Below are positions 1-54,636 of a stretch of DNA of 64,000 nucleotides, piece by piece. Below the pieces are notes generated by a model, which searched no databases, was not told the DNA's origin, and was given only the letters and a program-made list of their open reading frames with translations. Source of the DNA: Paenibacillus sp. (GTDB lineage Bacteria; Bacillota; Bacilli; Paenibacillales; Paenibacillaceae); assembly GCA_023512345.1 (NCBI GenBank), contig JAILZT010000005.1:1-64000 (forward strand). The letters run 5' to 3'. The stretch's first letter is position 1. Each line of letters begins with the position of its first letter. A program made the translations under genes and the position numbers.

Positions 1-379
1 AAATCAGTGCTCGACAGGTGACGGGTAGGACAGTAAATCGTTACGCCCTAATAGAGGGATTTTCTCCCTCTATTTCTTCACCTGACATCTCTTTTGGGCT
101 ATTAGAGGGAATTTCACCCGCTAATTTTGAGAATATACCTCTTTGAGGCGTTATGGCTAAGATTAGAGGGATATTTTCCCTTTAATCTCGAAATAAAGGC
201 TTTTCTGTCGGTATTAGCGGGCATTTTTCCCTCTATTTCGCCGAAGGATGGGTCCGCAACCCCGAATGGGGTACCTTTAAGGCGAGCGTAGTTACCCCAA
301 ATCCGGTGAAACATCAGGCGAAGTTAGATCGAAATCGTTCCCGATTCAGTGACGCAAGCGGAAAGTCAAGCACTGTTTT
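1..379. repeat. Four-hairpin intergenic repeat (TAGAGGGA...TCCCTCTA family), copy 1, with terminal inverted repeats
   Basis: Hairpins at about 52-72, 102-124, 161-187, 215-235. Ends aaatcagtgctcgac (1-15) and gtcaagcactgtttt (365-379) are near-perfect inverted repeats. A diverged inverted copy lies at 33606-33894. Confidence 0.85.
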
Positions 380-483
380 CGAGAAAAAGCCTAAATACTT
401 AAGCTTCATTACCAAAAAAACCAAAAAAGAGCGCCCCAACAACCATTATCATGGTTATTGAGACACTCAATTAAAAGAATAAT

Positions 484-1269
484 TTATAACGACTCTACTA
501 AAGGAATAAGATCTGCCAAATCTTCTATTTCGAAATGTGGTTGTATCTCAGGGTTCGGCTCTTTGCCAGTTCGGTTAATCCAAACCGTGGTTAAGCCCGC
601 GGCTAATCCGCCTCGGATATCCGTAGTGAGCTTATCCCCAACCATAACCCCTTGCTCAGGAGTGATATCAAGCATTTCAAGAGCATGTATGAAAATACCC
701 TTATCTGGTTTTCCTTTGCCGAAGCTTCCCGAGATCACAATATGGTCAAAATAGGGGATTAAATCTGGCACCCCATCCAGCTTCTCTTGCTGAAGTGCAG
801 GGCAGCCATTCGTTAGAAGCAGCAGCTTCACTTTGCCACGCAATTGATCAAGAATATGGAAGGTCTCCTTATAAATATAAGGTCTGCTTCTACGTTCAAG
901 TGCGAACCTGTCAGACAATGTCTGAGCGAGATCCTCATCATGAATTCCAAGAGCTTCTAACCCCCGGCGCCATGATTCCTTACGGTACAGCGGAGCTAAC
1001 TTTTCCATTTGTCGAAATTCGTTCTGCTCACCCGCAGTAAAATTACCCCAAAGTGCTTCGAAGGGATTGATCCCGATCATCTGAGTAAAGGGGAAGGTCT
1101 CGTAGGACTCATATAAACCTCTTGCTTCCCTACGAACCGCTTCCTCCAGTGCTTGAGGGTTAACAGTGTCTCCAGCTGCTTTACAAGTAAATTCAAATGC
1201 TTCCTCTATACTGCGCTCATCCCAGAGCAGCGTGTCGTCCAGATCAAACAGTACGGCTGTAATCGGCAT
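484..1269 (-). CDS. HAD family hydrolase (HAD-IA, YjjG-like)
   Basis: N-terminal LFDLDDTLLWD motif, LLLTNG, and VMVGDKLTTDIRGG motif IV. Confidence 0.9.
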   Translation of the reverse strand: MPITAVLFDLDDTLLWDERSIEEAFEFTCKAAGDTVNPQALEEAVRREARGLYESYETFPFTQMIGINPFEALWGNFTAGEQNEFRQMEKLAPLYRKESWRRGLEALGIHDEDLAQTLSDRFALERRSRPYIYKETFHILDQLRGKVKLLLLTNGCPALQQEKLDGVPDLIPYFDHIVISGSFGKGKPDKGIFIHALEMLDITPEQGVMVGDKLTTDIRGGLAAGLTTVWINRTGKEPNPEIQPHFEIEDLADLIPLVESL

Positions 1270-1303
1270 TAAATTTCTCCCTCTCCCTCAATAACTGTGT
1301 TAT

Positions 1304-1825
1304 CTACTCTTGCTCTAGTAAAATGTTATTGTCTTTGGCAAACTGCTGTAGGCGTTCTCCCATAACTGCAGTATCATAACGATTGATGAGTCTGGAGAAA
1401 ATCCATTTCATCCGTTTGCCCTTATGTTTAATGGTTACAGAACCGCGGGAAATAATGATTTTCTCAATGTCCGCTGCTCCTAGAAAACGTTCACGATTAA
1501 ATTTGAAGGTCGAAAGTCTTGCGCGCTCCACCTTCAGGTACGGACGGCGGAAAAAGAGAAGAGCGGCCAATGCAAAATAAAGAGCAATTCCGATCCAATT
1601 CATTAACGAGCCGTTACCCTCGGTTTGGTCTATTGTTCCAACCATCCAGTACATAATTCCCAGTCCGAGCAGAACTACAGGCAGAACAATATTACGTCCT
1701 CTGTATACATCACCTGTCTTCGTTGAAACTGTTGTAGCATGAATTGAATCTTTACCAGCTTTTTTTCTTTGCTGATTGACTTTTTGCGAATTGCGTTGAA
1801 CCATTCTTTCCCAAGAACGGGCCAT
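1304..1825 (-). CDS. Hypothetical membrane protein
   Basis: Basic N-terminus and two hydrophobic segments; intact ORF. Confidence 0.65.
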   Translation of the reverse strand: MARSWERMVQRNSQKVNQQRKKAGKDSIHATTVSTKTGDVYRGRNIVLPVVLLGLGIMYWMVGTIDQTEGNGSLMNWIGIALYFALAALLFFRRPYLKVERARLSTFKFNRERFLGAADIEKIIISRGSVTIKHKGKRMKWIFSRLINRYDTAVMGERLQQFAKDNNILLEQE

Positions 1826-1874
1826 GTGATTTCCCCCTAGTCATACTGTAATATCTATGAAAAGGAAATAGGTA

Positions 1875-2084
1875 CTAATGCAAAAGTCCCTTGTTCCCTT
1901 CGTCATGCTTGTCATCTTCTACAATCTCAATAGTGTTCAACTGAGCTCGGAAATTATTCCGTATGTTGTCCAAATAGATTTCACGAAGCTTAGAGCGTTC
2001 CGCCAATTCCTCTTCATTCAGGCCAACGGTCTTCTGTTTGCGTGCTAATTCGTTAATCCGTCCGACCAGTTTATCGATGTCCAC
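1875..2084 (-). CDS. DUF896 family protein (YnzC-like)
   Basis: MDIDKLVGRINELARKQKTVGLNEEELAERSKLREIYLDNIRNNFRAQL is typical of DUF896; next to yneA/lexA as in Bacillus. Confidence 0.9.
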   Translation of the reverse strand: MDIDKLVGRINELARKQKTVGLNEEELAERSKLREIYLDNIRNNFRAQLNTIEIVEDDKHDEGNKGLLH

Positions 2085-2125
2085 TGCTTTTCCCTCCCTT
2101 ATAAATTCATACTAACTTTGCCATG

Positions 2126-2166
2126 AGAAAAAGAGCTTGTCAAGGTCTTCCCCCTGCAAGCTCTTC
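2126..2166 (-). terminator. Rho-independent terminator downstream of yneA-like gene
   Basis: gagcttg...caagctc stem with a T-run on the minus strand. Confidence 0.7.
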
Positions 2167-2193
2167 GGTAAGCAATTAAGTTCTCAATAAATC

Positions 2194-2571
2194 TTAGTAA
2201 ATAGGAAGTGATAAGATATCTCCAGCCTGAATACTGGTATCCGTAAGCCCGTTGTACTGCCTAATTCCTTCTATATATACAACCGTTCTCATACCCGACG
2301 GCTTATTACTCAATGCAATACTCCAAAGTGTATCACCACGTTCTACCACAATCTCTTTCTCTTGATGCTTAACTGCAGAAATCGAACTGGCAAAGACATT
2401 TCCTACGACTGTAAACCCGGAAACAACCAGCATAACAATCATCATAAGCTTAATAAGATAGGCTTTTCTAAATAGTGAAGCATTCAAACGACTAAATGCA
2501 GAACGTTTTTCTATAGTGTCAACCCTCGGTGTCATTTCATAAATGCTGCGATATGTGCTGTATTTTAACAT
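2194..2571 (-). CDS. yneA: LysM-domain protein, YneA-like SOS cell-division inhibitor (start could be 2580)
   Basis: N-terminal TM segment plus LysM-type sequence (VVERGDTLWSIA...GDILSLPIY); divergent from lexA with SOS boxes between. Confidence 0.8.
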   Translation of the reverse strand: MLKYSTYRSIYEMTPRVDTIEKRSAFSRLNASLFRKAYLIKLMMIVMLVVSGFTVVGNVFASSISAVKHQEKEIVVERGDTLWSIALSNKPSGMRTVVYIEGIRQYNGLTDTSIQAGDILSLPIY

Positions 2572-2620
2572 GTATACCATCCTCCAAACACTTGTTCTTA
2601 CTTTCAAATTTAATATAGCA

Positions 2621-2634
2621 CGAACATGTGTTTG
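2621..2634. promoter_or_regulatory. LexA (SOS) box, exact match to CGAACRNRYGTTYG
   Basis: CGAACATGTGTTTG. Confidence 0.9.
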
Positions 2635-2649
2635 AATCAATACTAATTT

Positions 2650-2708
2650 AGAACAATTGTTCGCTTTTAATTATATTTAGAACTTATGTTTGTACGAACG
2701 GTAGTTCT
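2650..2708. promoter_or_regulatory. Additional degenerate LexA boxes upstream of lexA
   Basis: agaacaattgttcg (2650-2663), agaacttatgtttg (2679-2692) and cgaacggtagttct (2695-2708) resemble CGAACRNRYGTTYG with mismatches. Confidence 0.65.
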
Positions 2709-2751
2709 ATGTTATAATTTTCCCAAACATTACTATATGGGGTTGATTCCG

Positions 2752-3378
2752 ATGTCCAAGATTTCAAGTCGTCAATTGGCGATCCTGGAATTCATACGTA
2801 GCGAAGTCCGCAGCAAGGGTTATCCGCCTTCCGTACGCGAAATAGGAGAAGCTGTAGGCCTTGCATCCAGTTCCACGGTCCATGGTCATCTAGACAGGCT
2901 GGAGAAGAAAGGGCTTATCCGACGTGATCCAACGAAGCCACGTGCAATTGAACTTCTGGGTCAAGAAGATTCTGATAATGTCCACCAATTTGCACAGACG
3001 ATCACCCGTGTTCCGGTCGTTGGTAAGGTAACTGCCGGTCTTCCTATTACCGCAACTGAGAATATCGAGGATTACTTTCCACTTCCCTCACATTATGTTG
3101 GGGATAACAAAGTATTCATGTTATCCGTTCTCGGAGATAGTATGGTCGAAGCAGGTATTATGAATGGGGATTACGTTATCGTTCGCCAACAACAAACAGC
3201 TGACAATGGCGATATCGTTGTAGCCATGACAGATGAAGATGAAGCAACAGTTAAGACCTTTTATAAGGAACGTGATCATATTCGCCTGCAGCCTGAGAAC
3301 CCAGCCTACGAACCCTTACGCCTTAACCGTGTAACGATATTAGGCAGAGTTATCGGATTGTTCAGAGATATTCATTAA
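2752..3378 (+). CDS. lexA: Transcriptional repressor LexA
   Basis: [54 protein letters not shown]... with Ser/Lys peptidase motifs ([15 protein letters not shown]). Start moved to 2752 from the ORF track start. Confidence 0.98.
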
Positions 3379-3410
3379 TTCCCTTATTCATTATTTTCTG
3401 TAAGAACCCA

Positions 3411-3452
3411 AATAGGCTGCTATCGCATATTTTGCGAAGCAGCCTTTTGTAT
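3411..3452 (+). terminator. lexA terminator
   Basis: aggctgct...agcagcct stem followed by a T-rich tract. Confidence 0.7.
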
Positions 3453-3520
3453 TTAATACCTTCTTTTTTTGAACGTCTTAGGCTTGGGACACATATCCTG
3501 CTATAAAAGGAGTGCTGATG

Positions 3521-3862
3521 ACCATGCCAAATCTTCGAATCATCGTCGATTTATCTCAACGTATGCTATACCTATTAGAAGATAATATAGTCGTCCGAGG
3601 TTTTCCTGTAGGAATCGGTTCTATGCTAAATCAATCTCCTGAAGGTGAGTATACGATTATCAACAAACAGGCTAACCCCGGAGGACCCTACGGGGCATTT
3701 TGGATGGGGCTTTCTAAACCTCATTATGGGATTCACGGAACCAATAACCCTTCATCTATTGGCAAAAGAGTATCTCGCGGCTGTATTCGTATGTATAATG
3801 CGGATGTGTTGACGCTTTCGAGTAAGGTGTCGGTAGGAACAAGAGTAACTATACGTCAGTAA
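3521..3862 (+). CDS. L,D-transpeptidase (YkuD domain)
   Basis: HGTNNPSSIGKRVSRGCIRMYNADV is the catalytic HGT...SxGCIRM motif. Confidence 0.9.
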   Translation, partial: TMPNLRIIVDLSQRMLYLLEDNIVVRGFPVGIGSMLNQSPEGEYTIINKQANPGGPYGAFWMGLSKPHYGIHGTNNPSSIGKRVSRGCIRMYNADVLTLSSKVSVGTRVTIRQ

Positions 3863-3968
3863 GATAACTACAACTAAAAATTTTAAAAATTCTAAATTGA
3901 GTAACTAAGCCGTTACCATCTATCCGTTTCTCCATAAGTTAATAAAGAAAAGGAGGCGGATTGAATCT

Positions 3969-4208
3969 ATGGAAGCCTATTACAATTGCTTACACTGCAA
4001 GAACAAAAAAGTCCGTATTTTAACTGTGGATGGCCAACAGCATGTTGGTGTAATTATGGATGTAGACAGAAATAATGTATATTTAAAACCGGAACGAAGC
4101 GGCAGAGTACAGACCTCAGGTTTTTATCCCTACCCCTATCCCAATCCTTATGCCAATCAAATTCTAACGCTAAGCCTGTTCACATTGTTAGCAATTGCTT
4201 TAATTTAA
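3969..4208 (+). CDS. Small hypothetical protein
   Basis: ORF with RBS aaaggaggcgg upstream; Tyr/Pro-rich C-terminal half. Confidence 0.6.
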   Translation: MEAYYNCLHCKNKKVRILTVDGQQHVGVIMDVDRNNVYLKPERSGRVQTSGFYPYPYPNPYANQILTLSLFTLLAIALI

Positions 4209-4218
4209 TCTTACGCTG

Positions 4219-4248
4219 ACTCTCCTTCATAAAGGGGAGTTTTTTACT
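4219..4248 (+). terminator. Terminator after small ORF 3969-4208
   Basis: actctcc...ggggagt followed by tttttt. Confidence 0.7.
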
Positions 4249-4398
4249 GTTTCCAGCTATAAAAGTGAGTAAATAATTACGCAATGACACGGTTAAGAGC
4301 GAATCTTTCAGGAACTCGAACATATCTTTTAGTAGTTTGTGTATAGGAGAAAGATTCTATATAGATTGAACTTAAGATTTTTGGAAAAAAGGATTAGT

Positions 4399-4770
4399 CG
4401 GACTGTGGTGAATGTATGGACTTCCGTCAGCAGTTGTCTACAGATTCTATGAATCCTATAGCTCTAAGTACTTTTTCTGGTGAATGAACAGACGTAGATC
4501 ATTGGTTCGCATAATAGCCACTCACTCCCCTCTAGATGTACGAACACGCGTGGATATCCGCTCAAGAAGAATGCTTAAGCTATACGGACTCAGGGTACGC
4601 TATTTAGTCCATTTACCTGAATTCCTTATCTATACGGACTCAGAAGACCTTATTTCTAAGAATTCGGTCATAAATAGCCCAGTATTCATAAATAACGGCT
4701 TCTGTGTCCGCATAACATACTAATAGAGCAATATATAGACGATAAGGGATCTGTAGTCCGCATAGCGTTC
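4399..4770. repeat. Degenerate ~50-bp intergenic repeat array (ACGGACTCAG / GTCCGCATA motifs)
   Basis: tatacggactcag at 4581 and 4631 (50 bp apart); gtccgcata at 4706 and 4756 (50 bp apart); related motifs upstream. Confidence 0.6.
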
Positions 4771-4952
4771 TCCACCACGATCTACTTTTAAATATATAAT
4801 ACTTTAGTTGCTGATATTTGGCTCAATCTTAATTACTAGTTTTATGAATATATTGGAAGTCCAAACCTTCACCATAGGTACTACCGCACGCCCAACAAGT
4901 GAATCATTAGTTCATTCTATATAGTAAAAAATAGTGTGAAGGAGGTATTCCA

Positions 4953-5525
4953 ATGCTCATTTTTTTAGTATACCTGTTCAGTTTCATAGGATCTTCCTTG
5001 TTATTCATTGCCGCTATTATAAAACTCAAATTAGTATTCCCGCTAACTGACCACAACAAGTTAATTGCTGCAGTCTCGCTTTTCAAAATAAAATTCCCAG
5101 TTCAATTTATAACTTCTAATAATACCTGCATTGTAGCAATCAATAAAACCTCCAGAAAAGTTGCCATAGGAACTATTAGTTCTACCTTTCAAAACAAGCC
5201 CACGGCAAACCTGTATGCTTTTGATGAAATTCTTGGCTGTGAAATCGTAGAAAATTCCCTAACTCTTTCAAAGGTCACTAAAACAAGTCTAATTAGTCGC
5301 AGGGAGATTGAGATTGGAGAAGAAATAACTGAGCTAACCATTAATATCTATATCAATGCTGCAAAAGTAAAGGTCCTCTCAATCTCCATCCTACCAGATC
5401 AGTTATCCCTAATAAGAACCGAACACCAATATACTCAAATATTTACGGAAGCGCTTCATCTATATCAATTGTTAACAGAGGTTGTTGTAGACGGAGATCG
5501 TGATCTGCGTAGAGTCGCCCAATGA
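4953..5525 (+). CDS. Hypothetical membrane-anchored protein
   Basis: ORF with RBS gaaggaggt and an N-terminal TM segment. Confidence 0.65.
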   Translation: MLIFLVYLFSFIGSSLLFIAAIIKLKLVFPLTDHNKLIAAVSLFKIKFPVQFITSNNTCIVAINKTSRKVAIGTISSTFQNKPTANLYAFDEILGCEIVENSLTLSKVTKTSLISRREIEIGEEITELTINIYINAAKVKVLSISILPDQLSLIRTEHQYTQIFTEALHLYQLLTEVVVDGDRDLRRVAQ

Positions 5526-5532
5526 GTATTGA

Positions 5533-5751
5533 CTATCCAGCAGATACAAATTGAATTACTCCTATGACCATAAGCACTAACATGATCCCGAGCAAAATAG
5601 CGATAGCTCTATACACTAGCTTTTTCGCAAATCCAGAAGAATATTCAGGAGATCTCTTTTCCAAATTGGATATACGACCTTCGAGATCCCGGAGTTTTTC
5701 ATCGTTATTGGTCATTAATTTCCCTCCGATCATTATTAAAAGCGCACCCAA
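5533..5751 (-). CDS. Small hypothetical membrane protein
   Basis: Short ORF with heptad-like region (LRDLEGRISNLEKR) and C-terminal TM segment. Confidence 0.5.
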   Translation of the reverse strand: MGALLIMIGGKLMTNNDEKLRDLEGRISNLEKRSPEYSSGFAKKLVYRAIAILLGIMLVLMVIGVIQFVSAG

Positions 5752-6025
5752 ATCTAACCAAATATATACTGCACCGAGCTACGAAACTGTGTTCACAACA
5801 TAACATATATGGAACATTATGTAAATGTATCGCGCTAAACGAAACATTATTACCCCCACAAACAACAAAAAGCTCATGTTCTTTATTATAAAAACTTTAG
5901 CTTCTGATTAGAATTAACACTCTCATCAATAAATCACCTAAAAAAAATCATCAAATAACTTTTGTGAGTATTTCGTGGGCACTTTATGATAGACGATCTG
6001 ACACTCAACTTTGCCCACACAGAGA

Positions 6026-6058
6026 AAAACCCTCAACGCTTAGAGCGTCAAGGGTTCT
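6026..6058 (-). terminator. glnA terminator
   Basis: aaccctcaacgct-tag-agcgtcaagggtt dyad, T-rich on the minus strand, just after the glnA stop. Confidence 0.7.
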
Positions 6059-6063
6059 GGGTT

Positions 6064-7392
6064 CTAGTAAAGAGTCATGTACTGATTACGTTCCCACTCA
6101 TGTACTTGGGTCCGGTAGATATCCCACTCAATTTCTTTCAACTCATAGAAGTGAGCAAGGGCATGTTCGCCGAGAGCATCCGTAATTACCTGACTGCGGA
6201 TCAATTCGCTTAGCGCTTCCTTCAAATCGGCTGGCAAGCTTGGGATGCCTTCTTCAATACGCTCTTCCTCAGACATAACGTAGATGTTGCGGTCAATTGG
6301 AGCAGGAAGTTCAAGCTGACGCTTGATACCGTCGAGTCCAGCCTTCAACATTACAGCAAGCGCAAGGTAAGGGTTAGCTGCAGGGTCCGGATTACGAACT
6401 TCAACGCGAGTACTCAATCCTCTTGATGCCGGGATACGGATCATTGGACTACGGTTACTTGCGGACCAAGCTACATAACAAGGCGCTTCATAACCAGGCA
6501 CAAGACGTTTGTAAGAGTTTACTGTCGGGTTAGTAATCGCTGCAAAAGCACGTGCATGCTTCAGAATGCCAGCCATGTAGTAACGTGCAGTTTTACTTAG
6601 GCCCAACTTATCGCTCTCATCGTAGAACATGTTCTCACTGCCCTTGAACAAGGATTGGTGAGCATGCATACCGGATCCGTTCATACCAAATAGTGGTTTA
6701 GGCATAAAAGTTGCATGCAAGCCGTGTTGACGGGCAACCGTCTTCACAACGAGCTTAAAGGTTTGAATTTGATCAGCTGCTTTGATAGCATCAGCATACT
6801 TGAAGTCGATCTCATGTTGGCCAGAAGCCACTTCATGATGGGATGCTTCAACTTCAAAGCCCATTTCCTCAAGTGTCAATACGATTTCGCGACGGCAGTT
6901 CTCCCCAAGATCCATCGGCGCCAAATCAAAATATCCACCTTGATCGTTCAATTCAGTTGTAGGATTACCTCTCTCGTCCGTTTTGAACAAGAAAAACTCA
7001 GGTTCAGGTCCAACATTCATCGCTGTAAAGCCCATTTCTTCTGCTTCCTTCAGACAACGTTTGAGGATACCGCGCGGGTCTCCAGCAAAAGGTGTGCCAT
7101 CCGGCATGTACACATCACAGATAAGGCGTGCCACACGACTGTCAGTCACCCAAGGGAAAATAACCCATGTACTAAGGTCAGGATACAAATACATATCTGA
7201 CTCTTCGATACGAACATAACCCTCGATGGAAGAACCATCGAACATCATTTTGTTATCAAGTGCCTTTTCCAATTGGCTGAAAGGAATTTCTACATTCTTG
7301 ATCGTACCCAGTAGATCAGTAAATTGCAGACGAATAAAACGTACATTCTCTTCCTTGGCAATTCTCATAATATCCTCTTTAGAAAAGCTCAC
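6064..7392 (-). CDS. glnA: Type I glutamine synthetase
   Basis: [36 protein letters not shown], and C-terminal glutamine synthetase sequence; downstream of glnR. Confidence 0.98.
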
Positions 7393-7419
7393 TTTACCCT
7401 CTCCCTTACGCTCTTTATA

Positions 7420-7830
7420 TTATTTATTAAAAAACCGGGATAATTCTCCTTGAATGAGAGATACTTGGCCCGGTCTTTTACCTGAGACCAGCTCCTGCTT
7501 CAGCAAACGGTGAAGCTGGGAATCGGACAACTCTCTACGTCTTACCTCAGTATCCGGGGTAATTACCGTAGCTTCCTCAGATTCCTTAGTGACAGGATTC
7601 ATCACCTGCTTAATGCCGGCAATGTTAACACCTTTCTCTATCAATGCTTTGATTTCTAAAAGTCTTTCTACATCATTAAATGAAAATAAACGCTGATTCC
7701 CGGATGTACGTGCAGGCACGATCAGGCTATGCTGCTCATAATAACGGATTTGTCTTGCCGATAAATCAGTAAGTTTCATTACGATACCAATAGGGAATAA
7801 TGCCATATTTCTGCGGATTTCATCACCCAT
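7420..7830 (-). CDS. glnR: MerR family nitrogen regulator GlnR
   Basis: ALFPIGIVMKLTDLSARQIRYYEQHSLIVPARTSGNQRLFSFNDVERLLEIK; next to glnA. Confidence 0.96.
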   Translation of the reverse strand: MGDEIRRNMALFPIGIVMKLTDLSARQIRYYEQHSLIVPARTSGNQRLFSFNDVERLLEIKALIEKGVNIAGIKQVMNPVTKESEEATVITPDTEVRRRELSDSQLHRLLKQELVSGKRPGQVSLIQGELSRFFNK

Positions 7831-7901
7831 GACTCATCCAACCTTCCAATGATCTTTTTCTCATCTCATTGTACATTTCCTAATTTGGCGTGTCAATGGT
7901 A

Positions 7902-7918
7902 TGTAAGATATTCTTACA
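7902..7918. promoter_or_regulatory. GlnR/TnrA box TGTNAN7TNACA
   Basis: TGTAAGATATTCTTACA matches the consensus exactly; upstream of glnR and overlapping the ynbB stop codon. Confidence 0.85.
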
Positions 7919-9194: not shown

Positions 9195-9205
9195 TTATCA
9201 TAATA

Positions 9206-9233
9206 GTGACAGGGAACGGAAGCTCCCTGTCAC
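9206..9233. other. Perfect 10-bp-stem hairpin between hflX and ynbB
   Basis: gtgacaggga-acggaagc-tccctgtcac. Confidence 0.7.
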
Positions 9234-9263
9234 TTATTTCATTTATGAATTACCATTTACTTG

Positions 9264-10586: not shown

Positions 10587-10636
10587 TTATGAGATGCTCC
10601 TTATGCCGGTTATATTAATATCTAATCATGCTGGGC

Positions 10637-11611: not shown

Positions 11612-11684
11612 CTCATTATACAGGGCTGACTACTCTACTCAAGTCTATTCCCATAGATGAAGTGTTATTAGCAGATTCAAGATT

Positions 11685-12350: not shown

Positions 12351-12351
12351 C

Positions 12352-13022: not shown

Positions 13023-13030
13023 TCTGAAAC

Positions 13031-20140: not shown

Positions 20141-20232
20141 GAGCTATGGGAGACGAATCAAGTGTATTTTTACACTTGATATCGCCGATTCGAGCTATGG
20201 GAGGCGAATCAAGTGTACTTTTACATCTGATT
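20141..20232. repeat. Two tandem 51-bp units with 10-bp-stem dyads in the mutS-mutL spacer
   Basis: gagctatgggag(a/g)cgaatcaagtgta(t/c)ttttaca... at 20141 and 20192; dyads at 20157-20180 and 20208-20231. Confidence 0.85.
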
Positions 20233-20445
20233 ACTAATTGGACATAGATGTACAATTGGTTCGACAACCCGGTGTTCAGTAGTTAAGCAACCTATTTTTT
20301 TCAATTACCTGTTGTACGTTTCCTATAGTTCGTCACCTGATATACGTTGTCTGTAATACGTTAACTGTCATTCGGTATCTGTTGTACGTCACCTATTGTT
20401 CAGTTATCTGACATCATTTTATAAACTGGGTGCAAAACGAAACGA

Positions 20446-33613: not shown

Positions 33614-33894
33614 TGTTTCAGGTAGCCAACTCGGGGTTGCGGACCCGTTCGTTGGCGAATTAGAGGGAAAAATGCCCGCTAATACTGACCAAAACGCCTT
33701 TATTTTGAGATTAAAGGGAAAATATCCCTCTAATTTTACCCATAACGCTCCAAAGTAGTATATCCTCAAAATTAGCGGGCAAAATTCCCTCTAATCTCCC
33801 AAATGGGGCGTCGAACGCAGAAATAGAGGGAGAAATTCCCTCTTTAGGCGTATCGGCTTTCTATCCTTCCCCTCGCCAGTCAAGCACTGATTTT
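33606..33894. repeat. Four-hairpin intergenic repeat, copy 2, inverted relative to copy 1
   Basis: Matches the reverse complement of 1-320 over most of its length; ends gtcaagcactgatttt; hairpins centred about 33671, 33722, 33783, 33834. Confidence 0.85.
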
Positions 33895-34031
33895 GGTGTT
33901 GAGCCATAAAAAATTCGAACAGTTTAAACCACCACTCTTGTTAGTGAGGGTTTTTTGTTGTTGACAAACAAAAACTCCTGTACTATATTATTTATAGTAA
34001 ATATCAAATGCATATTAAAGGAGAAATTATA

Positions 34032-39999: not shown

Positions 40000-40241
40000 C
40001 ATTGGGTAAAATAGAAAGAGTGATCACCTCTGATGAGATGACCACTCTTCTGCTTATACGTATCTAACTTATCTACCGCTCATTAAAACCTTCGCTATTA
40101 ACTCCATAATATATACTACTATTCACTCCATACAAATTTACCGCAACATAACTCCCCTATCCACTGTTCCTACTACTCTGCTACTCCTTACTACTCTCCT
40201 TCTTCGTACTTTCCTGCTACATCGTCTACTTGTAATTGATA

Positions 40242-40426
40242 TAGTTGTACTTAGTACAACTAAAACCATTGTACTTGGAGAGTGTTACTTTTTAGTTGTA
40301 CTTTATGCAGTTATTTTTTCAATATAAGACCTTCTTGGCAGTCTAGAAACTTTATAGTTGTATAAAGTGCAATTAAAAGCCAAGGCGAGCTATTTTAACC
40401 CTAAATAAGTGTAAAAAGTACAACTA
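40242..40426. repeat. Array of four 21-bp dyads (TAGTTGTAC-TTA-GTACAACTA family)
   Basis: Dyads at 40242-40262 (perfect 9-bp arms), 40293-40313, 40355-40375, 40406-40426; spacing 51, 62, 51. Confidence 0.85.
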
Positions 40427-40499
40427 TATTAACCATTCTACTAAATTTTGTAAATCAACCACTTTACGCCATCCATTTTACAATAATTAGGTCTAAATG

Positions 40500-42897: not shown

Positions 42898-42937
42898 GGT
42901 CATTAAGCTGAAGTCTAATGAGTGGAGTTCATTATGA

Positions 42938-42966
42938 AAGCCCATGCTTTTAGCAAGGGCTTTTTT
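42938..42966 (+). terminator. Terminator after ORF 42376-42897
   Basis: aaagcccatgcttttagcaagggctttttt. Confidence 0.75.
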
Positions 42967-43024
42967 AGTGCATTCAGTGCGGCTTAGCTATAGGCTTATG
43001 GTTTGAATTATGTGGATCTACAAT

Positions 43025-43342: not shown

Positions 43343-43497
43343 CTCCTTTGTGTTCCTTCATCATACTTAAAAAATTGAATTTTACCAAATCAAAAAACTC
43401 CAAATTTCTATTTGACAAGATCTTAGCGTCAATGATAAACTCTGAACATAACTTAGCGACTTCAAGTTATTACCAAATTAACGAAAGGGTGAGAGCG

Positions 43498-43590
43498 GTG
43501 TTTAATCCATTACTGGACCGGAAATTTACTATTGTTGGAGATTTCATACAACTAAATACCGAAGCAGCCCGTGTGGTGAAACCTTTCTGA
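43498..43590 (+). CDS. Putative 30-aa leader peptide (BmrB-like) of the downstream ABC pair
   Basis: GTG start after aaagggtga; MFNPLLDRKFTIVGDFIQLNTEAARVVKPF*; followed by hairpins and a strong terminator before the bmrC-like gene. Confidence 0.6.
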   Translation: MFNPLLDRKFTIVGDFIQLNTEAARVVKPF

Positions 43591-43597
43591 AGCTAAT

Positions 43598-43724
43598 GCG
43601 ATTAACGTTTATCGCATCCTTATAGCCAATGAATTTTCCTTGCCCGGTGCTGCTTTGCACCGTGCGCATGATAAGCTCTAAATTCCAAGCATATCGTCCG
43701 TTTTCGGATGATATGCTTTTTTGT
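43598..43724 (+). promoter_or_regulatory. Attenuator region: upstream hairpins plus terminator before the ABC pair
   Basis: gcgat..atcgc and cggtgc..gcaccg hairpins, then aagcatatcgtccg-tttt-cggatgatatgctt followed by tttttg. Confidence 0.7.
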
Positions 43725-43775
43725 GTGTTCTAGAGCTAAACCACTATTACATTAACCCGAAAGAAGGGATTTACT

Positions 43776-45524: not shown

Positions 45525-45543
45525 TTCAGCAAACATTTAGGGG

Positions 45544-47628: not shown

Positions 47629-47650
47629 TCCATGGAAACTTGATGTTTCC

Positions 47651-47688
47651 AAAAGCCCCGGCCCATTGTAATGGTGCCGGGGCTTTTG
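47651..47688. terminator. Terminator after the BmrD-like gene
   Basis: aaaagccccggc...gccggggctttt. Confidence 0.85.
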
Positions 47689-47757
47689 TTGTTATTGTGT
47701 ACGGAACATTCGTTCTGTATAATGAAAATTAATACATATGAGCGGAGTGATCAAACG

Positions 47758-49008
47758 TTGATCAACTACTTAATTACCAAAAAACAGGCCAGACTGTTCC
47801 TACTGCAACATCAGCAGCTAAATCCTTCCATCCTTTCAGGCTCGAAACAAAGTATTTACGATTATATTAGACGTGTGGGATGTATACAGTATGATCCACT
47901 TAGCATTACAGGCCATAATCATGAACTTGTTCTCCAGGCCCGTATCCCGGGATTCACCCCAGAGCTGGTACAGGAACTCCTCTATCAGGACCGGTTGCTA
48001 ATCGATGGCTGGGATAAGAATATGTCCATATATTGCACAGAGGATTGGCCTTATTTTCAGCGGAGCCGTGAGCTTGCAACCTCTCGATATGAAAGGAATA
48101 GTGAGATCATGGCAACCGTTGAACGTGTTCGCCGGGAATTAACGGAACGAGGTCCTCTCTCCTCTCTGGATTTGGAGGGAAAAGACAAAATCAACTGGGC
48201 CTGGGCTCCAGCCCGTCTCTCCCGCGCAGCGTTGGAAAGTATGTATTTCTGGGGAGAGTTGGTCATACATCATCGAGTTCATACCCGACGTTATTACGAT
48301 TTCACGACCAGATTACTGCCTGAATCCATCCTTGAACGTCAAGATCCTAATGAAACAGAAGATCAGTATTACGATTGGTATGTATTACGGCGAATTGGCA
48401 GTATCGGACTTCAATGGAACAGATCGGGCGATGGTTGGTTGGGTATTAACGGATTGAAGAGCAAGGAGAGAACAGGTGCCGTCCAGCGATTGCTGCATAC
48501 CGACAAGATCAGGGAAGTAAATGTTGAGGGAATCAAACTCCCTTTCTATATCAGAAGTATTGATGCACCTGTTCTAGAGGGGATTTTAGAGGAAACAAAT
48601 GAACATGGGGAAGATTATTCAATTACATCAACCGCCACTGCACTTGCTCCCTTGGATAATTTACTGTGGGACCGAGAGCTGATCAAACAGCTCTTTGATT
48701 TTGAGTATCGCTGGGAAGTCTACAAACCAGCAGCGGAGCGGCAATACGGTTATTATGTACTGCCACTGCTGTATGGAGACCGATTCGTAGCCAGAATTGA
48801 GCCCGTCATGGATAAAAAAAGTGGAATCTTAACCATCATTAATTGGTGGTGGGAACTGGGAGAAAGCTTATCCCCAGAGCTGACACTTGCAATCAGGGAC
48901 GCTATGATTTCCTTGGCTCGTTGCGTGAGAGCGAACTCTGTTCAGTTCCTGCCCGAGGTCGTAACTAAATCAGGATTACAGGAGCTTATAATAATGATGC
49001 CAGAATAA
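47758..49008 (+). CDS. Winged-helix DNA-binding / crosslink-repair family protein (YcaQ-like)
   Basis: RRVGCIQYDPLSITGHNHELVLQARIPGFTPELVQELLYQDRLLIDGWDKNMSIYCTEDWPYF. Likely TTG start at 47758. Confidence 0.85.
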   Translation: MINYLITKKQARLFLLQHQQLNPSILSGSKQSIYDYIRRVGCIQYDPLSITGHNHELVLQARIPGFTPELVQELLYQDRLLIDGWDKNMSIYCTEDWPYFQRSRELATSRYERNSEIMATVERVRRELTERGPLSSLDLEGKDKINWAWAPARLSRAALESMYFWGELVIHHRVHTRRYYDFTTRLLPESILERQDPNETEDQYYDWYVLRRIGSIGLQWNRSGDGWLGINGLKSKERTGAVQRLLHTDKIREVNVEGIKLPFYIRSIDAPVLEGILEETNEHGEDYSITSTATALAPLDNLLWDRELIKQLFDFEYRWEVYKPAAERQYGYYVLPLLYGDRFVARIEPVMDKKSGILTIINWWWELGESLSPELTLAIRDAMISLARCVRANSVQFLPEVVTKSGLQELIIMMPE

Positions 49009-49051
49009 GAACGCTCTCCGTTTGAGAGAAGAATTCTAGGTGTTAATGTGA

Positions 49052-49088
49052 AAAAAGAACGGCCTCCCTTTAGAGAGCCGTTCTTTTT
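49052..49088. terminator. Bidirectional terminator between convergent genes
   Basis: aagaacggc...gccgttcttttt. Confidence 0.8.
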
Positions 49089-49094
49089 ATGTAG

Positions 49095-49715
49095 TTATAT
49101 TTTTTTCGCAATATAGTCTACAAAGCCTTGCCGTATCCGTTCACCTTCAAAAATACGCTCCAACACCCTGTCTTCTTTGTACAATACTTCCATGTCACTG
49201 AACAAAATATCCGGCTCATCGGGTCTGTAATAAGAATGAATAACCGGAAGATCATCATCGAATTGTTCATATTGATTTTCACCGAGGTCCGGTCCCTCAC
49301 CACAGCGGAAGTCATTCACTGTGAGGAAATTAACGAAGAGTAGTCCACCGGGTTTTAGTACACGCTTCATCTCTTCAACGGACTGTACGACTTCGCTTTT
49401 CCTCATGTGAAAGACTGAGTTATAGGAATATACAAAGGGGATCGATTCATCCGCAAAGGTCAGCTGCCGCATATCTCCCTGCCGAATATCCAGAAAAAAT
49501 TGATGCTTTTGTCCAAAAGTATTAGCCAGTTCGATTTGCTGCTCATCACTATCGATGCCATGGGTTATGTATCCATACTGAGCGAATAAAGCTAAAGGCG
49601 GGGTATCTCCACCAGCTCCACAGTCTAAAACGACCCTGTTCATTTCTGTCTCATTGCAGAACATCAAGTATCGGTATAAAGGCGTCTGTTTGAAAATTTC
49701 GGCCACAGTGAACAC
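49095..49715 (-). CDS. Class I SAM-dependent methyltransferase
   Basis: VVLDCGAGGDTPPLALFAQYGYITHGIDSDEQQIELA...VLKPGGLLFVNFL. Confidence 0.85.
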   Translation of the reverse strand: MFTVAEIFKQTPLYRYLMFCNETEMNRVVLDCGAGGDTPPLALFAQYGYITHGIDSDEQQIELANTFGQKHQFFLDIRQGDMRQLTFADESIPFVYSYNSVFHMRKSEVVQSVEEMKRVLKPGGLLFVNFLTVNDFRCGEGPDLGENQYEQFDDDLPVIHSYYRPDEPDILFSDMEVLYKEDRVLERIFEGERIRQGFVDYIAKKI

Positions 49716-49720
49716 TCCTT

Positions 49721-50290
49721 TTATTTTTTCTGCTTCTTAAAGCAGGAGGTATCACGTTCTAATCGTTCGGCAGAGAGTCCTTTATGTACTAGCTGTTTTT
49801 CATTCCAGTGATAGAGCCCCTCATATGCCCCATCCAACCCAAGCTTCGCATACATTTCTGTGCAATAACCCTGTAATTTGATTTCTAGTCTGCTGGCATT
49901 ATTTTTAAATCTCTTCAGCTCCCGGATGATATGAGCTCTTCCTGCTGGTGTGAAGGTATCTTGAATACGCTCTTTAAAATAATCATGAACTATGTAGTTG
50001 CGCTGCTTCCACACGTTCTGCAATTGTGCTGTTTCCTCCTCAGAGAAAGGGAAATGATGCTGGATTTCTTTGATGAGCTGGCCGAGTGTATTGCCAAGTT
50101 TACGCTGATACAGATCCGCTAAATCTGCTTCGGAAGGTGTTTTACCCTGTGACAGCTTCGTGAGCAGCAACAGGTTGGTAAGCTGCTGTTCCAGCGCTTG
50201 TCCATAGTAAACAGCCAGTCCGAAATAAGCGAATAACTCTTTGGAATGTTCACTCTCCGGTAATTGTGTGTCCTTCATCTTTCCTCCCAC
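49721..50290 (-). CDS. Hypothetical protein
   Basis: Intact ORF with RBS; no family recognised. Confidence 0.6.
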   Translation of the reverse strand: MGGKMKDTQLPESEHSKELFAYFGLAVYYGQALEQQLTNLLLLTKLSQGKTPSEADLADLYQRKLGNTLGQLIKEIQHHFPFSEEETAQLQNVWKQRNYIVHDYFKERIQDTFTPAGRAHIIRELKRFKNNASRLEIKLQGYCTEMYAKLGLDGAYEGLYHWNEKQLVHKGLSAERLERDTSCFKKQKK

Positions 50291-50322
50291 TGAAATTTTT
50301 TAATAAATTGATAAGGACTTAT

Positions 50323-51036
50323 TTATATTCTCGAATAATCTTTTTTTCCAACTCTAAATAAGTACAATGCTATTAAAAGAACTATATACAATGATACATG
50401 AACAAAAGACATTAGCATACTTGAAACTGGCAGGGAGTCCCCATTCATCAGGGCATTCATTAATGGAGCTACCGGCGGCAGAAGAAGGCCTAAGAGTTTG
50501 AGGTATCCGGTTAACAGGCCACTAATCTGAGTTCCACCAATGGACAGGATGATAATCCCTAACATGAGCCCGGCAGCATAACTCCTTTTAGCAATCCAGG
50601 ATGATTGAAGAAACAAGGAAATAGTAATTCCTAGTAGTCCCATGAGACCATGTCCTGCCAATGCCAGCAGAAATCGATAAAAACCTACCGGTTCAGAGAA
50701 CTGTCTTGTGATCAGTGGATACAACACTATCATCACATCTAATAGTAGAGTAAGGATTGACAGGCTAAGGATTCCACCAATACTATATCTTCTCGCACTT
50801 CTTAAATGAACAATTAACACTTGCCTTAGAACTGCATGCTCATGATTCAGAAAACTCAATCCCATAGCGGCACACCCGATAAACAAAATCACAGCAGTAG
50901 CAGCATAACTATTCATTACGGGGTTCGGCTTGTATGAATACAATACTAACACCGCGATAACTATACCCGACAATGGAGCAAAATAACGCTGAGAGCGAGT
51001 GTAGCTTTTGAGTATATGACCTATCAATGAGCTCAT
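50323..51036 (-). CDS. ABC transporter permease-like membrane protein
   Basis: Multiple TM segments; start overlaps the stop of the adjacent ABC ATPase gene. Confidence 0.65.
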   Translation of the reverse strand: MSSLIGHILKSYTRSQRYFAPLSGIVIAVLVLYSYKPNPVMNSYAATAVILFIGCAAMGLSFLNHEHAVLRQVLIVHLRSARRYSIGGILSLSILTLLLDVMIVLYPLITRQFSEPVGFYRFLLALAGHGLMGLLGITISLFLQSSWIAKRSYAAGLMLGIIILSIGGTQISGLLTGYLKLLGLLLPPVAPLMNALMNGDSLPVSSMLMSFVHVSLYIVLLIALYLFRVGKKDYSRI

Positions 51037-51977
51037 GACTCAGACCCCCTTAGGTTAGAAGCTTTAGGGGTCATCCATGACTCTAGTCCCGAAAGTCCTC
51101 CGATACGCTCCACCGAGATCACAGAGCCTCCAGCATCCAGTATGTTCCGCAGAAAGGTGTCGCAGTGTGAAGCTTGAACAGAAATCAGTGAACAATCATA
51201 ACCCATTTGCTCAACCGATGTATCCCAAGAAAGAAACCCTGGCATCTGCTCTAATTGTGTGTTTGACTCCTGCTGCGAAAGGCCTCTGTAACTAATTCTC
51301 GAATAAGAGGTGCTATGTAATTCTGATCGGTTTATCGTCCGTATCGTTCTACCTGTCTGCAGCACATGGACGTTATCAGCCAACGCTTTTATCCATTGCG
51401 GTTCATGAACTGAAAATACCAAAGCCGTCCCTTGCCTTTTCATGTCACTAACGCATTCAAGCAAAGATTCCTTAGCAGGAGCATCAAGTCCTGACATCGG
51501 CTCATCAAGCAGCAGCAACGAAGGCCTAACGAGCATGCTTTGCATGAGATTCACCTTTTGAAGCATGCCTTTTGAGAAGCTCTCCATTGGACGTGTACGG
51601 TAACTTTCCAGGCGAAAACAGACTAACAGCTCTGAAATCCTACGATCTATTTCTACAGGTGCAAAACCGTGTAAGCGTCCAACACACCTCAAAAACTCCT
51701 CTGGAGTAAACTTTAGACCCGGGAAAATCTCGGGAGCATACCCGATCCTCATTCCCTTCTCCTTATAGAGCAAACGGCCGCACGAGATCTGAATTAAACC
51801 AGCAAGAATGGACAACATTGTACTTTTACCGGAGCCATTTCGACCAATTATAGCTGTAGCAGACCCCGGCTCAATCCTCATAGAGACTTCATCAAGCACC
51901 GATATTCCGTTATATTTTTTCCCGACTCGCTCAAGTTCAATTAGAGGTAATTCGCTGACTTTATCCTTGGTTTTCAT
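51033..51977 (-). CDS. ABC transporter ATP-binding protein
   Basis: IGRNGSGKSTMLSILAGL, FSKGMLQKVNLMQSML, LLLLDEPMSGLD. Confidence 0.9.
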   Translation of the reverse strand: MKTKDKVSELPLIELERVGKKYNGISVLDEVSMRIEPGSATAIIGRNGSGKSTMLSILAGLIQISCGRLLYKEKGMRIGYAPEIFPGLKFTPEEFLRCVGRLHGFAPVEIDRRISELLVCFRLESYRTRPMESFSKGMLQKVNLMQSMLVRPSLLLLDEPMSGLDAPAKESLLECVSDMKRQGTALVFSVHEPQWIKALADNVHVLQTGRTIRTINRSELHSTSYSRISYRGLSQQESNTQLEQMPGFLSWDTSVEQMGYDCSLISVQASHCDTFLRNILDAGGSVISVERIGGLSGLESWMTPKASNLRGSES

Positions 51978-52096
51978 TGATACTCCTATCAAAAATTCAG
52001 TTCTAACCTGTAGTAACTCTACATCCCATTTATTCGCCGGATACATACTAATTTCCTTTTAACGAAGACGATTAAAGTTATCATTCATAATTAAAT

Positions 52097-52142
52097 AAGA
52101 CCAAGCTAGTGCAGTGTGTTTCCTGCTCCAGCCTGGTCTTAT
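52097..52142 (-). terminator. Terminator downstream of Cys-rich protein
   Basis: aagacca...tggtctt with T-rich flank on the minus strand. Confidence 0.6.
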
Positions 52143-52172
52143 ATACACTAACTTCAACAATCCCTCAGGCCA

Positions 52173-52520
52173 TTATGCATACACCGCAACAGCTTCACTT
52201 ATCTGACGACAAGCCTCTGCACATTCTCGGCAAGCTTCGATGCAGTCCTTACAATGTGTATGTACATTTAGGCTGCATACTTCAGCACAGGCTTCACAAA
52301 TTTCCGCACACAAGCGGCATATTTCAGCAACAAAAGGGCTTTGACGGGACATCGCCTGTATTGCATATCCACAAATATCAGCACATTCCCGATCCATACG
52401 AATCGTATCTCGCAGTAATTCAAGGTCGTACTTTTTCAGGCTTGAGACATAACTATAATTACAGGCGTTCATACACTTGATACAAGCATCAATGCACTCC
52501 TGATATTGAATTGGGGTCAT
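52173..52520 (-). CDS. Four-helix bundle copper-binding-type Cys-rich protein (DUF326)
   Basis: CIDACIKCMNACN...CADICGYAI...CRLCAEICEACAEVCSLNVHTHCKDCIEACRECAEACRQI. Confidence 0.92.
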   Translation of the reverse strand: MTPIQYQECIDACIKCMNACNYSYVSSLKKYDLELLRDTIRMDRECADICGYAIQAMSRQSPFVAEICRLCAEICEACAEVCSLNVHTHCKDCIEACRECAEACRQISEAVAVYA

Positions 52521-52652
52521 AGCCTTAACCTCCTGCTTTTTGATGGGTATGTCTTTGTATTAACCTATAGGAATAGCAACGAACCAACCAATTTATAGCG
52601 CTAATTATTGAAAATTAAGATTTTATTCTGGAGGAAAATCATTCATTATCCA

Positions 52653-53690
52653 TTACAAATTTCTTTTCACAGTGCTCGGCCTTACCAAAATCCGCTTCTC
52701 CATCTGCAGCAACTTCTTACGCAGCTCACTAGATGAGAAGTGCTCCCCAATAAATACAGCAACGTCCGGGACCTCACCTTGTGGAGTGATTTTCATATAA
52801 TCCGCTTCCCGATAAGCATATTGGAAAAGAAAACGGCTTGAGGTATCACTAAACGTTAAAATCCCCTTAGCCCTATACACATCCCGAGGAAGCGCTTGAA
52901 CAAACTCTTCAAATTCCACACTGTCCACTGGACGTTTAAAATAATGCGTGTATGCCATTACATGATCGTGTGCGGCATGAACAGAACCATTTTCCTGCTG
53001 ACTCCCAGGGTCGCCACTGTCTAACAGAAGTTCTGAGGCCACATCCTCCTCTACCTCATACTCACCTTCACTTAAAATCCCCCCAGAATTGCTGAGGAGT
53101 TCCTCAGGTTCCAGTTCACAGCGAACAGTAGGCATAATCGGTGCAAAAGCATTCCATTTTCGCAGCACACCAGTAACCTCTTCGACTTCTTCTGCGGTCA
53201 CTCGATCCGTCTTGTTTAAGATCAGCACTGAAGCACAGCGGATTTGCTCCTGCATCAGCCTATAAGTCTTGCCTTGCTGCGAACGGTGCAGCTCGAGAAT
53301 ATGGGCGGCATCTACAACTGTAATTAGGCTCCTTAGCTCAACTTTGAGGTACAGCGACGTTTCGGTCACACCATCCACAATTTCAAGCGGATTCGCCGCA
53401 CCTGTAGCTTCGATTATCACCACATCCGGTGACTCCTTTTTCACAAGGGTTGTCAGTTCAGTACTGAGATCCCCGCGAATAGAGCAGCAGATACAACCTC
53501 CCAGTAATTCCGCCATCGGCACCGTTTGTTCCACTAGAAGCCCGTCCAGGTTCACCTCTCCCAGCTCATTCATAACGACTGCCGGACGCAGTCCCTGGCT
53601 CTTCCAATGCTCCAATAAACGCTGCAGCAAAGTTGTTTTGCCACTTCCCAAAAATCCAGACAATATATATACAGGTACAACCTGTTCCAC
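52653..53690 (-). CDS. CobW/COG0523 family GTP-binding protein
   Basis: VYILSGFLGSGKTTLLQRLLEHW, GGCICCSIRGDL, ILNKTDRV. Confidence 0.93.
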   Translation of the reverse strand: MEQVVPVYILSGFLGSGKTTLLQRLLEHWKSQGLRPAVVMNELGEVNLDGLLVEQTVPMAELLGGCICCSIRGDLSTELTTLVKKESPDVVIIEATGAANPLEIVDGVTETSLYLKVELRSLITVVDAAHILELHRSQQGKTYRLMQEQIRCASVLILNKTDRVTAEEVEEVTGVLRKWNAFAPIMPTVRCELEPEELLSNSGGILSEGEYEVEEDVASELLLDSGDPGSQQENGSVHAAHDHVMAYTHYFKRPVDSVEFEEFVQALPRDVYRAKGILTFSDTSSRFLFQYAYREADYMKITPQGEVPDVAVFIGEHFSSSELRKKLLQMEKRILVRPSTVKRNL

Positions 53691-53872
53691 GCTTCATCTC
53701 TCCCAATAAAAACCTTTATGCTAGCGAGTGTACTACAACCAGTCATATAGACGCAACCTCATAACTAACGCCAGACCCGTCTGCTAACAAATTGGATAAC
53801 TTGTCTTTGCCTAAGCCATACCCTATCATGAGGATATACTGTAGTCTAAACCCCGCCAAGGAGCTGATCAAG

Positions 53873-54388
53873 TTGTCATCTGTCGAAGAACATCGCAAGG
53901 AAGCGCCAAAATCTGTTAACTGCTACATCATCACCGTCTCCGATACCCGTACCCCTGAAACTGATTCCGGTGGTGACCTTGTTCAAAAATTCCTTGAAGA
54001 AGCTGGCCATACGATTGCAGGCCGGACTATTGTGAAGGACGATTATGAAGATATTCGAGAACTGGTCTATAAAAATTCAGTACATACTGGGATAGAAGCC
54101 ATCATCCTAACAGGTGGCACAGGTATTTCCCCGCGAGATACAACTTACGAATCTGTAGCGTCATTGCTCGACAAAGTATTACCGGGTTTTGGTGAGATTT
54201 TTCGGTTTCTCAGTTTCACGGAGGATATTGGATCAGCAGCCATCCTTAGCCGCGCTATTGCGGGTACGATCGGGAACACCGCTATTTTTTCCATACCCGG
54301 TTCAACGGGAGCGGTTAAGCTGGCTATGAGCAGAATCATCATCCCCGAGCTGGGACATGTGATGCGGGAGATTTATAAGCGTGGTTGA
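53873..54388 (+). CDS. moaB: Molybdenum cofactor biosynthesis protein MoaB (MogA/MoaB family)
   Basis: CYIITVSDTRTPETDSGGDLVQKFLEEAGH, ILTGGTGISPRDTTYE, FSIPGSTGAVKLAM. TTG start after aaggag at 53873. Confidence 0.92.
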   Translation: MSSVEEHRKEAPKSVNCYIITVSDTRTPETDSGGDLVQKFLEEAGHTIAGRTIVKDDYEDIRELVYKNSVHTGIEAIILTGGTGISPRDTTYESVASLLDKVLPGFGEIFRFLSFTEDIGSAAILSRAIAGTIGNTAIFSIPGSTGAVKLAMSRIIIPELGHVMREIYKRG

Positions 54389-54449
54389 TATGATTTCCGA
54401 CCATAAGTTCATGTGATTCCGGGTATCTGTCCGGTTTTCAACGTTTGTG

Positions 54450-54636
54450 TTGTATATATGCAATTGAATTCCACCATTTGGCTCGTTTTCCTGGTTCCTG
54501 TTGCATATATGCAATAGATTCTGGCTATCTGGGTGATTTTCTTGATATATGTTGTATATATACAATAACTCTGACCATCTGGCCACTTTTCTTAGTTTGT
54601 GTTGTATATATGCAATTGGATTCCACCATTTGGCTG
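54450..54636. repeat. Tandem array of four ~51-bp units each with a TTG(T/C)ATATAT(G/A)CAA dyad
   Basis: Dyads start at 54450, 54501, 54552, 54602; shared ...ccaccatttggc... spacer motif. Confidence 0.92.

Follow-up and report, generated by a model that had tools for sequence, protein, structure and literature searches.

Several intergenic repeats of dissimilar sequence on a single Paenibacillus contig place their dyads at much the same intervals, which raises the question of whether the spacing itself is what is conserved and, if so, what might read it. The window analyzed here is the first 64,000 nucleotides of contig JAILZT010000005.1 (assembly GCA_023512345.1), and it holds the following features.

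1..391, + strand: MITE carrying the first A-family element, delimited by alignment of copies; truncated on the left by the contig start; terminal inverted repeat of the right end at 365-391 (GTCAAGCACTG...AGCC)
51..236, + strand: A-family element; dyads 51-73, 102-124, 163-185, 214-236; centers 62/113/174/225, spaced 51-61-51
4569..4655, + strand: ACGGAC degenerate repeat, two units 50 bp apart; membership doubtful
20157..20231, + strand: E-type pair of (A)TCAAGTGTA-N4-TACACTTGA-like dyads in the mutS-mutL spacer; centers 20168.5 and about 20219, 51 bp apart
33660..33845, − strand: second A-family element, inverted; dyads 33660-33682, 33711-33733, 33772-33794, 33823-33845; centers 33671/33722/33783/33834, spaced 51, 61, 51
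33879..33905, − strand: terminal inverted repeat GTCAAGCACTGATTTTGGTGTTGAGCC belonging to the MITE around the second A element, from alignment of copies, including both-ended ones
40241..40427, + strand: C-family element; dyads 40241-40263, 40292-40314, 40354-40376, 40405-40427; centers 40252/40303/40365/40416, spaced 51-62-51
54450..54615, + strand: D array of four TTGYATATATGCAA-like 14-mers starting at 54450, 54501, 54552, 54602; centers 54456.5/54507.5/54558.5/54608.5, spaced 51, 51, 50

Rereading the sequence gave the same centers as a preliminary description of this DNA for the A array, its inverted copy, and the C array, and likewise the 51-bp pair in the mutS-mutL spacer. The spacings proposed for the D array also stand, although the positions taken there as centers are the starts of the 14-mers. 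For the ACGGAC array the 50-bp unit holds, but no dyad rose above the score threshold of the dyad scan, so this array lends no support to a dyad architecture. The dyads had been thought unrelated between families. We found instead a single degenerate consensus, TTARNKGNA-N5-TNCMNYTAA (half-site TTARNKGNA, 5-bp center), of which the A and C dyads are both variants, and shared ancestry of the two is therefore likely; as far as the tests go, all that links the D and E arrays to A/C elements is their geometry. Across Paenibacillaceae, the element is a high-copy, almost purely intergenic unit of ~187 bp with four 23-bp dyads at 51-62-51 (51-61-51 in the A family of the source genome). Its dyad centers are mirror-symmetric, and the left and right dyad pairs have opposite orientations, which would put the 2-fold axis of a bound complex at the midpoint of the 62-bp interval.

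In ~864 kb of the source genome, a mismatch-tolerant score gave an enrichment of intergenic dyad pairs over dinucleotide-shuffled controls at 51 bp (7 versus 0.4), 61 bp (6 versus 0.25), and 112 bp (5 versus 0). Much of this local excess is owed to A-family copies. A stricter scan of the same 864 kb (exact 7-bp arms, loops up to 9) showed no spacing peak, and in four congeners generic dyad autocorrelation, which lacks the power of motif-specific scans, gave no clear peak at 51/61 shared among them. The reality of the spacing is decided by family-wide tests rather than by local shuffles: a motif-pair pattern with the distance left free returns essentially only 50-52 and 61-63 bp, control patterns gave zero matches in 300 genomes, and a sequence-agnostic measure of symmetry, run onward from a 51-bp pair, has peaks at exactly 62 and 113 bp beyond it.

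Applied to 84,980 species, the distance-free scan found dyads paired 50-52 or 62 bp apart in Paenibacillus and Cohnella, and pairs 40-41 bp apart in Chloroflexi MAGs. Counts over the 300 genomes place the elements in genera g1, g13, and g18 and in part of g16 and g17, whereas genera g2-g10 have few or none. Paenibacillus relatives carry dozens to hundreds of elements per genome, with 104-121 51-bp pairs in each of three congeners. The suggestion that phased dyads, not one sequence, are under selection is supported well beyond the window by a genus- and family-wide enrichment of the spacing. Arrays are intergenic in 194 of 196 cases and favor convergent gaps (64/180 arrays versus 66/394 background gaps) over divergent ones (15/180 versus 77/394); the C-family element of the window has convergent genes on either side. 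No shared partner gene lies beside the elements in low-copy genomes, where the neighbors are ordinary and diverse. Tandem arrays at 50-52 bp reach 18 dyads, and in the long ones of Cohnella the tandem spacers are GC-rich and show no obvious phase.

Spacers of different elements are unrelated (28% identity), even within a single genome, yet their length is kept to about 1 bp. A/T and G/C alternate through the whole element in register with the dyads, and the signal ends at the outer dyads. In the spacers alone, alternation power was 1.18, compared with a maximum of 0.31 in 500 shuffles. The phase was significant individually in 47 of 63 elements, with a concentration of 0.96 versus about 0.1-0.3 in the flanks; the C element of the window, taken by itself, was not significant (p = 0.21). 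Elements with A-type, C-type, and mixed dyads have equal phase and similar strength, and D array spacers show ~10 bp phasing too. The A/T peaks hold A and T at about equal frequency, from which we conclude that bendability is kept rather than a given sequence. The whole-element period is 10.23 bp (95% 10.22-10.24), and power at 10.7 bp is 4% of the peak. This would place the dyads on one helical face 5 and 6 turns apart, as had been proposed, with a helical repeat of ~10.2 rather than 10.5 bp.

These measurements bear directly on two explanations that ask nothing of a protein. If the arrays were diverged copies of one ancestral repeat, their spacing would be a relic, and the common A/C consensus does point to common descent; however, spacers have been randomized without change of length, and the helical phase survives as A-or-T, not as given bases, so the shared spacing is not simple homology and we give passive descent almost no credence. 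The window's C element and its ortholog in genome G098 illustrate the pattern, with dyads 82% identical, spacers 45% identical, and lengths identical. The dyads could alternatively be hairpins of a structured RNA or DNA cruciforms, a reading to which the common 7-9 bp stems with 5-nt loops lend themselves and which the preliminary description had entertained as a regularly folded RNA. Complementary double changes, however, are hardly more common within a dyad (17.2%) than between dyads (15.2%), and the two halves of a dyad resemble each other no more than they resemble halves taken from other dyads. Since half-sites vary independently, without stem-like covariation, neither an RNA hairpin nor a cruciform explains the constraint. 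Mismatched dyads are also conserved among A copies, an RNA would not be expected to fix spacer length or helical phase, and no window match in Rfam reached its gathering score. A sub-threshold mir-277 match at 20191-20277 was taken as chance, and weak Rfam matches were otherwise unconvincing. We regard hairpins as very improbable.

Two further explanations invoke proteins of other kinds. The A family spreads in the source genome as MITE cargo: there are 24 full-length copies, several with MITE ends GGCTC...AAATCAGTGCTTGAC, and one both-ended copy is flanked by an 8-bp target duplication, GTAAATAT, which two other both-ended copies did not show. The A-family consensus had no match to plasmids. 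One might accordingly see the dyads as paired transposase or integrase sites, two per end (>> <<), in minimal transposons whose synapse requires the geometry, and the numerous dispersed copies, together with flanks shared beyond the array in one G008 subfamily, fit that picture. Terminal inverted repeats and target duplication mark the A-family carrier only. Against the transposon reading, in other subfamilies the flanks diverge right at the outer dyads with no common border sequence, the interiors of elements from a single genome are unrelated though fixed in length, one orthologous element has persisted as its spacers decay, and the loci read contained no gene with matching ends. We judge this reading improbable. 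Regulator dimers might instead bind one face cooperatively and touch or loop without wrapping, the A/T phase serving as intrinsic curvature that brings them together. Integral-turn spacing and independent half-sites would follow, and the long tandem arrays at 50-52 bp exist, but such binding by itself needs no in-register alternation that runs through all three spacers and ends sharply at the edges, and promoter-bearing divergent regions are avoided, unlike with an ordinary regulator. We consider this explanation unlikely, though one to keep in view.

The elements are probably cis sites for a candidate multimeric, two-fold symmetric architectural protein that would bind ~18 helical turns (187 bp) along one face and wrap or strongly bend the DNA. 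The four dyads would correspond to four dimers, with eight half-sites suggesting a stoichiometry of eight, and anchoring would be sequence-specific, in protein-facing major grooves 5, 6, and 5 turns apart. Spacer sequence would be free except for A/T-rich minor grooves facing inward every ~10.2 bp. The wrap may be left-handed, assuming that the DNA behind the 10.23-bp period has normal intrinsic twist. Its physiological output could be a chromosome-architecture site, a supercoil trap, or an insulator, mainly at gene 3' ends. Bacterial interspersed repeats are normally recognized by sequence or hairpins. This class is defined by distances and bendability, and sequence-based repeat finders would therefore split it into unrelated families. 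The elements point to a putative new complex that would wrap DNA in a large bacterial family, and the hundreds of natural variants with built-in register make site-defined DNA wrapping in bacteria directly testable.

We found no published description of such a Paenibacillus element in the open-access literature. A CRISPR reading was dropped on the repeat architecture (degenerate dyads, a mirror-symmetric four-dyad plan, a 62-bp middle, AT-phased spacers), and integron-like readings were dropped for the same degeneracy and symmetry. The E. coli BIME/REP repeats are likewise palindromic arrays that occur between genes in high copy, mostly at 3' ends, and binding of architectural proteins or topoisomerase, namely IHF and gyrase, has been demonstrated or proposed for them. 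REPs, however, form families by sequence and have true hairpin pairing, whereas the elements here are degenerate, do not conserve pairing, and keep inter-dyad distance and helical phase. Phased AT/GC content is a recognized mark of wrapped DNA: strong DNA gyrase sites (the E. coli cleavage motif consensus, Mu SGS) show this alternation in helical phase along >100 bp as a result of DNA wrapping, with flanks modeled at 10.7 bp/turn in a positive wrap (PMC6379681). The present elements, with a 10.23 bp period, ~187 bp of length, and four specific dyads, are not gyrase wrapping sites. RemA (YlzA/DUF370) forms an octamer/16-mer ring for which wrapping of poorly conserved DNA, contacted every ~10 bp, has been proposed, and also occurs in Chloroflexi (PMC8481266). 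Unlike the elements, it has no known sequence-specific dyads and its known sites lie upstream of promoters; present in every genome tested (two copies in practically all 300) with or without elements, it fails to explain their distribution. Lrp/AsnC octamers such as LrpC expose the helix-turn-helix domains of four dimers and wrap DNA in a nucleosome-like manner (PMC8481266); the title of a paper cited there describes the LrpC wrap as right-handed. Compared from the literature only, they resemble the proposed complex in having four dimers and in wrapping. To our knowledge, Lrp/AsnC sites are not spaced 51/62 bp. In nucleosome-positioning DNA, A/T steps recur in phase every ~10.2 bp with G/C half a turn off; the elements differ in being bacterial, in their four fixed specific dyads, and in their defined 187-bp boundary. 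We tentatively suggest that they might be a geometry-coded bacterial counterpart of such DNA, in which a dedicated multi-dimer protein would hold a left-handed wrap of ~187 bp at intergenic sites numbering from dozens to hundreds in each Paenibacillaceae genome, for packaging, supercoil storage, or transcription-unit insulation.

According to the preliminary description, intergenic repeats in the window share a geometry of phased dyads rather than a sequence. The dyads and spacings it listed are present with small corrections only: the D array (54450-54615) has the dyads and spacing reported, but the positions taken as centres are starts, and the degenerate ACGGAC repeat (4569-4655) keeps its 50-bp unit but has no convincing dyad. 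The anticipated enrichment over shuffled controls was also observed, as dyad pairs in ~864 kb of the window's own genome (GCA_023512345.1) exceeded dinucleotide shuffles at 51, 61, and 112 bp, and 51-61-51 was prominent in a sequence-agnostic scan for four-dyad geometries (4 vs mean 0.08). Both this excess and this peak are largely driven by the A family (24 full-length copies in the genome). Because the local results mostly reflect one family, we moved the test to relatives.

Exact 51-bp-unit tandem arrays of other sequence (ATTSTATTGTACTTTTACATCTCATT...) occur in a relative (G097:C2:303866-304426) and in the own genome (C12:245113-245316 and C12:262073-262276), and are kin of the E-type pair between mutS and mutL. 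The own genome holds two further hairpin repeat families:
C12:110130-110475, GCTTTCCGTAGGAAAGCT (dyads 49-50 bp apart)
C46:149661-150417, GCTTTCCGTAGGAAAGCT (dyads 49-50 bp apart)
C12:194310-194514, AAGAAGAAACGGC..GCCGTC..GGTTCTCGG
C46:10052-10247, AAGAAGAAACGGC..GCCGTC..GGTTCTCGG
C1:112732-112961, AAGAAGAAACGGC..GCCGTC..GGTTCTCGG
A neighbouring genus, g8, seems to have a phased design of its own, with TAACGGAA..TTCCGTTA dyads spaced 49-50 and 71 bp and adjoining REP-like GC hairpins (loci L391, L392, and L393).

One degenerate 23-bp dyad, with half-site TTARNKGNA and a 5-bp centre, underlies both the A and the C variants. Of 100 congeners, 56 have C-type and 37 have A-type dyads, and a reversed control pattern has almost no matches. 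At 60 loci picked by single dyads, pair distances were 51 (52 cases), 62 (31), 113 (45), and 164 bp (20), and the control gave zero pairs. A free-distance pattern allowing centres 39-69 bp apart returned 50-52 and 62-63 bp exclusively, and the same kind of any-distance pattern found 87 stretches in 84,980 species; distances among the loci listed were 50 (16), 51 (53), 52 (7), 62 (23), 63 (1), and 40-41 bp (6). Nearly all these loci are from Paenibacillus and Cohnella; the sole 63-bp case is a tandem repeat in Mariniphaga, and the 40-41-bp cases are from Chloroflexi MAGs. Sequence-agnostic symmetry peaks at 62 and 113 bp from anchor pairs (n = 59). Among 196 arrays with at least three dyads, 194 are intergenic and 91 are exactly 51-62-51; most others are off by 1 bp, and some are tandem, with up to 18 dyads at 50-52-bp spacing. 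Dyad pairs occur in 109/300 family genomes (control 0), their presence tracking genus, and three congeners carry 104-121 51-bp pairs per genome. No earlier account of such an element turned up in the open-access literature.

At three Chloroflexi MAG loci (L264, L270, and L275) the same consensus recurs, as TTAGRCGGA-N5-TCCGYCTAA, with dyads 40-41 bp apart (four helical turns) and variable spacers; these arrays are a possible distant or convergent counterpart of the element. By crude, open-reading-frame-based gene calls, which also underlie the intergenic count of the 196 arrays, convergent gaps are over-represented among those carrying arrays (64/180 vs 66/394 background gaps) and divergent gaps under-represented (15/180 vs 77/394). 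The terminus half of relative G075 holds 4/23 of the best A-type dyad loci, assuming that coordinate 1 is the origin; G008 does not clearly repeat this pattern.

The carrier of the A family in the own genome is a MITE of ~400 bp with terminal repeats GGCTC..., and an 8-bp target duplication accompanies one copy that has both ends; the contig starts within a copy (1-391), and the window therefore lacks the left end of the MITE carrying the first A element. In G008, flanks beyond the array are common to one subfamily, while other subfamilies end at the outer dyads. Mobility thus accounts for some copies, not for the conserved geometry. Once similar copies had been discarded, 108 four-dyad elements were left, with between-element identity of 63% in dyads and 28% in spacers. 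The window C element (40241-40427) is flanked by convergent genes; at its G098 ortholog, where the neighbouring protein is 96% identical, 51-62-51 is kept with dyads 82% and spacers 45% identical. A further orthologous locus (L343, in G076) holds a 51-62-51 element of a different dyad type. In composition, dyads 1 and 2 have centres that are the reverse complement of those in dyads 3 and 4, making the element two-fold symmetric.

What the spacers retain is helical phase. When 63 exact 51-62-51 elements were stacked, the spacers showed an A/T versus G/C alternation (~90% to 22% A/T) that kept register with the dyads, and the flanks were flat. Spacer-only power was 1.18 (maximum of 500 shuffles, 0.31), and phase was significant at 0.05 in 47/63 individual elements, with a phase concentration of 0.96. 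Over the whole element the period was 10.23 bp (10.22-10.24); the spacers gave 10.09 bp. A and T are about equally frequent at the A/T peaks; therefore, bendability is kept, not sequence. Phase is identical and strength similar across A-type, C-type, and mixed elements, and the spacers of the D array, which has a different dyad, are phased too (p = 0.002); the window C element on its own is not significant (p = 0.21).

The dyads might instead be hairpins, in which case pairing would demand matched changes between arms. Of 489 deviating sites, 17.2% showed a complementary double change within the dyad, hardly more than the 15.2% for the same coincidence across different dyads, even though the consensus score that found the dyad set partly rewards pairing and so biases against this result. 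Half-sites of the same dyad (likeness 0.63-0.66) are no more alike than those of different dyads of an element (0.63-0.72; between elements, 0.43). Both observations argue against hairpins, and the element-wide likeness is as expected if each element type had a single DNA-binding specificity.

We propose that a symmetric protein assembly would wrap the DNA around itself or bend it strongly, because the spacings are integral turns (51/5 = 10.2, 62/6 = 10.3), A/T minor grooves are phased, the 187-bp bound is sharp, and the element has two-fold symmetry with eight independent half-sites. Four dimers would be the simplest count for the putative assembly. Low-copy genomes have no shared partner gene beside their elements. 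Known or proposed DNA wrappers in Bacillales include RemA rings and Lrp octamers (PMC8481266); practically all genomes, however, carry two copies of RemA irrespective of the elements, so it does not explain their distribution. The period is below 10.5, which by analogy with nucleosomal DNA would suggest a left-handed wrap. The 10.23 bp of the element does not match gyrase sites, for which 10.7 bp per turn was modelled (PMC6379681).
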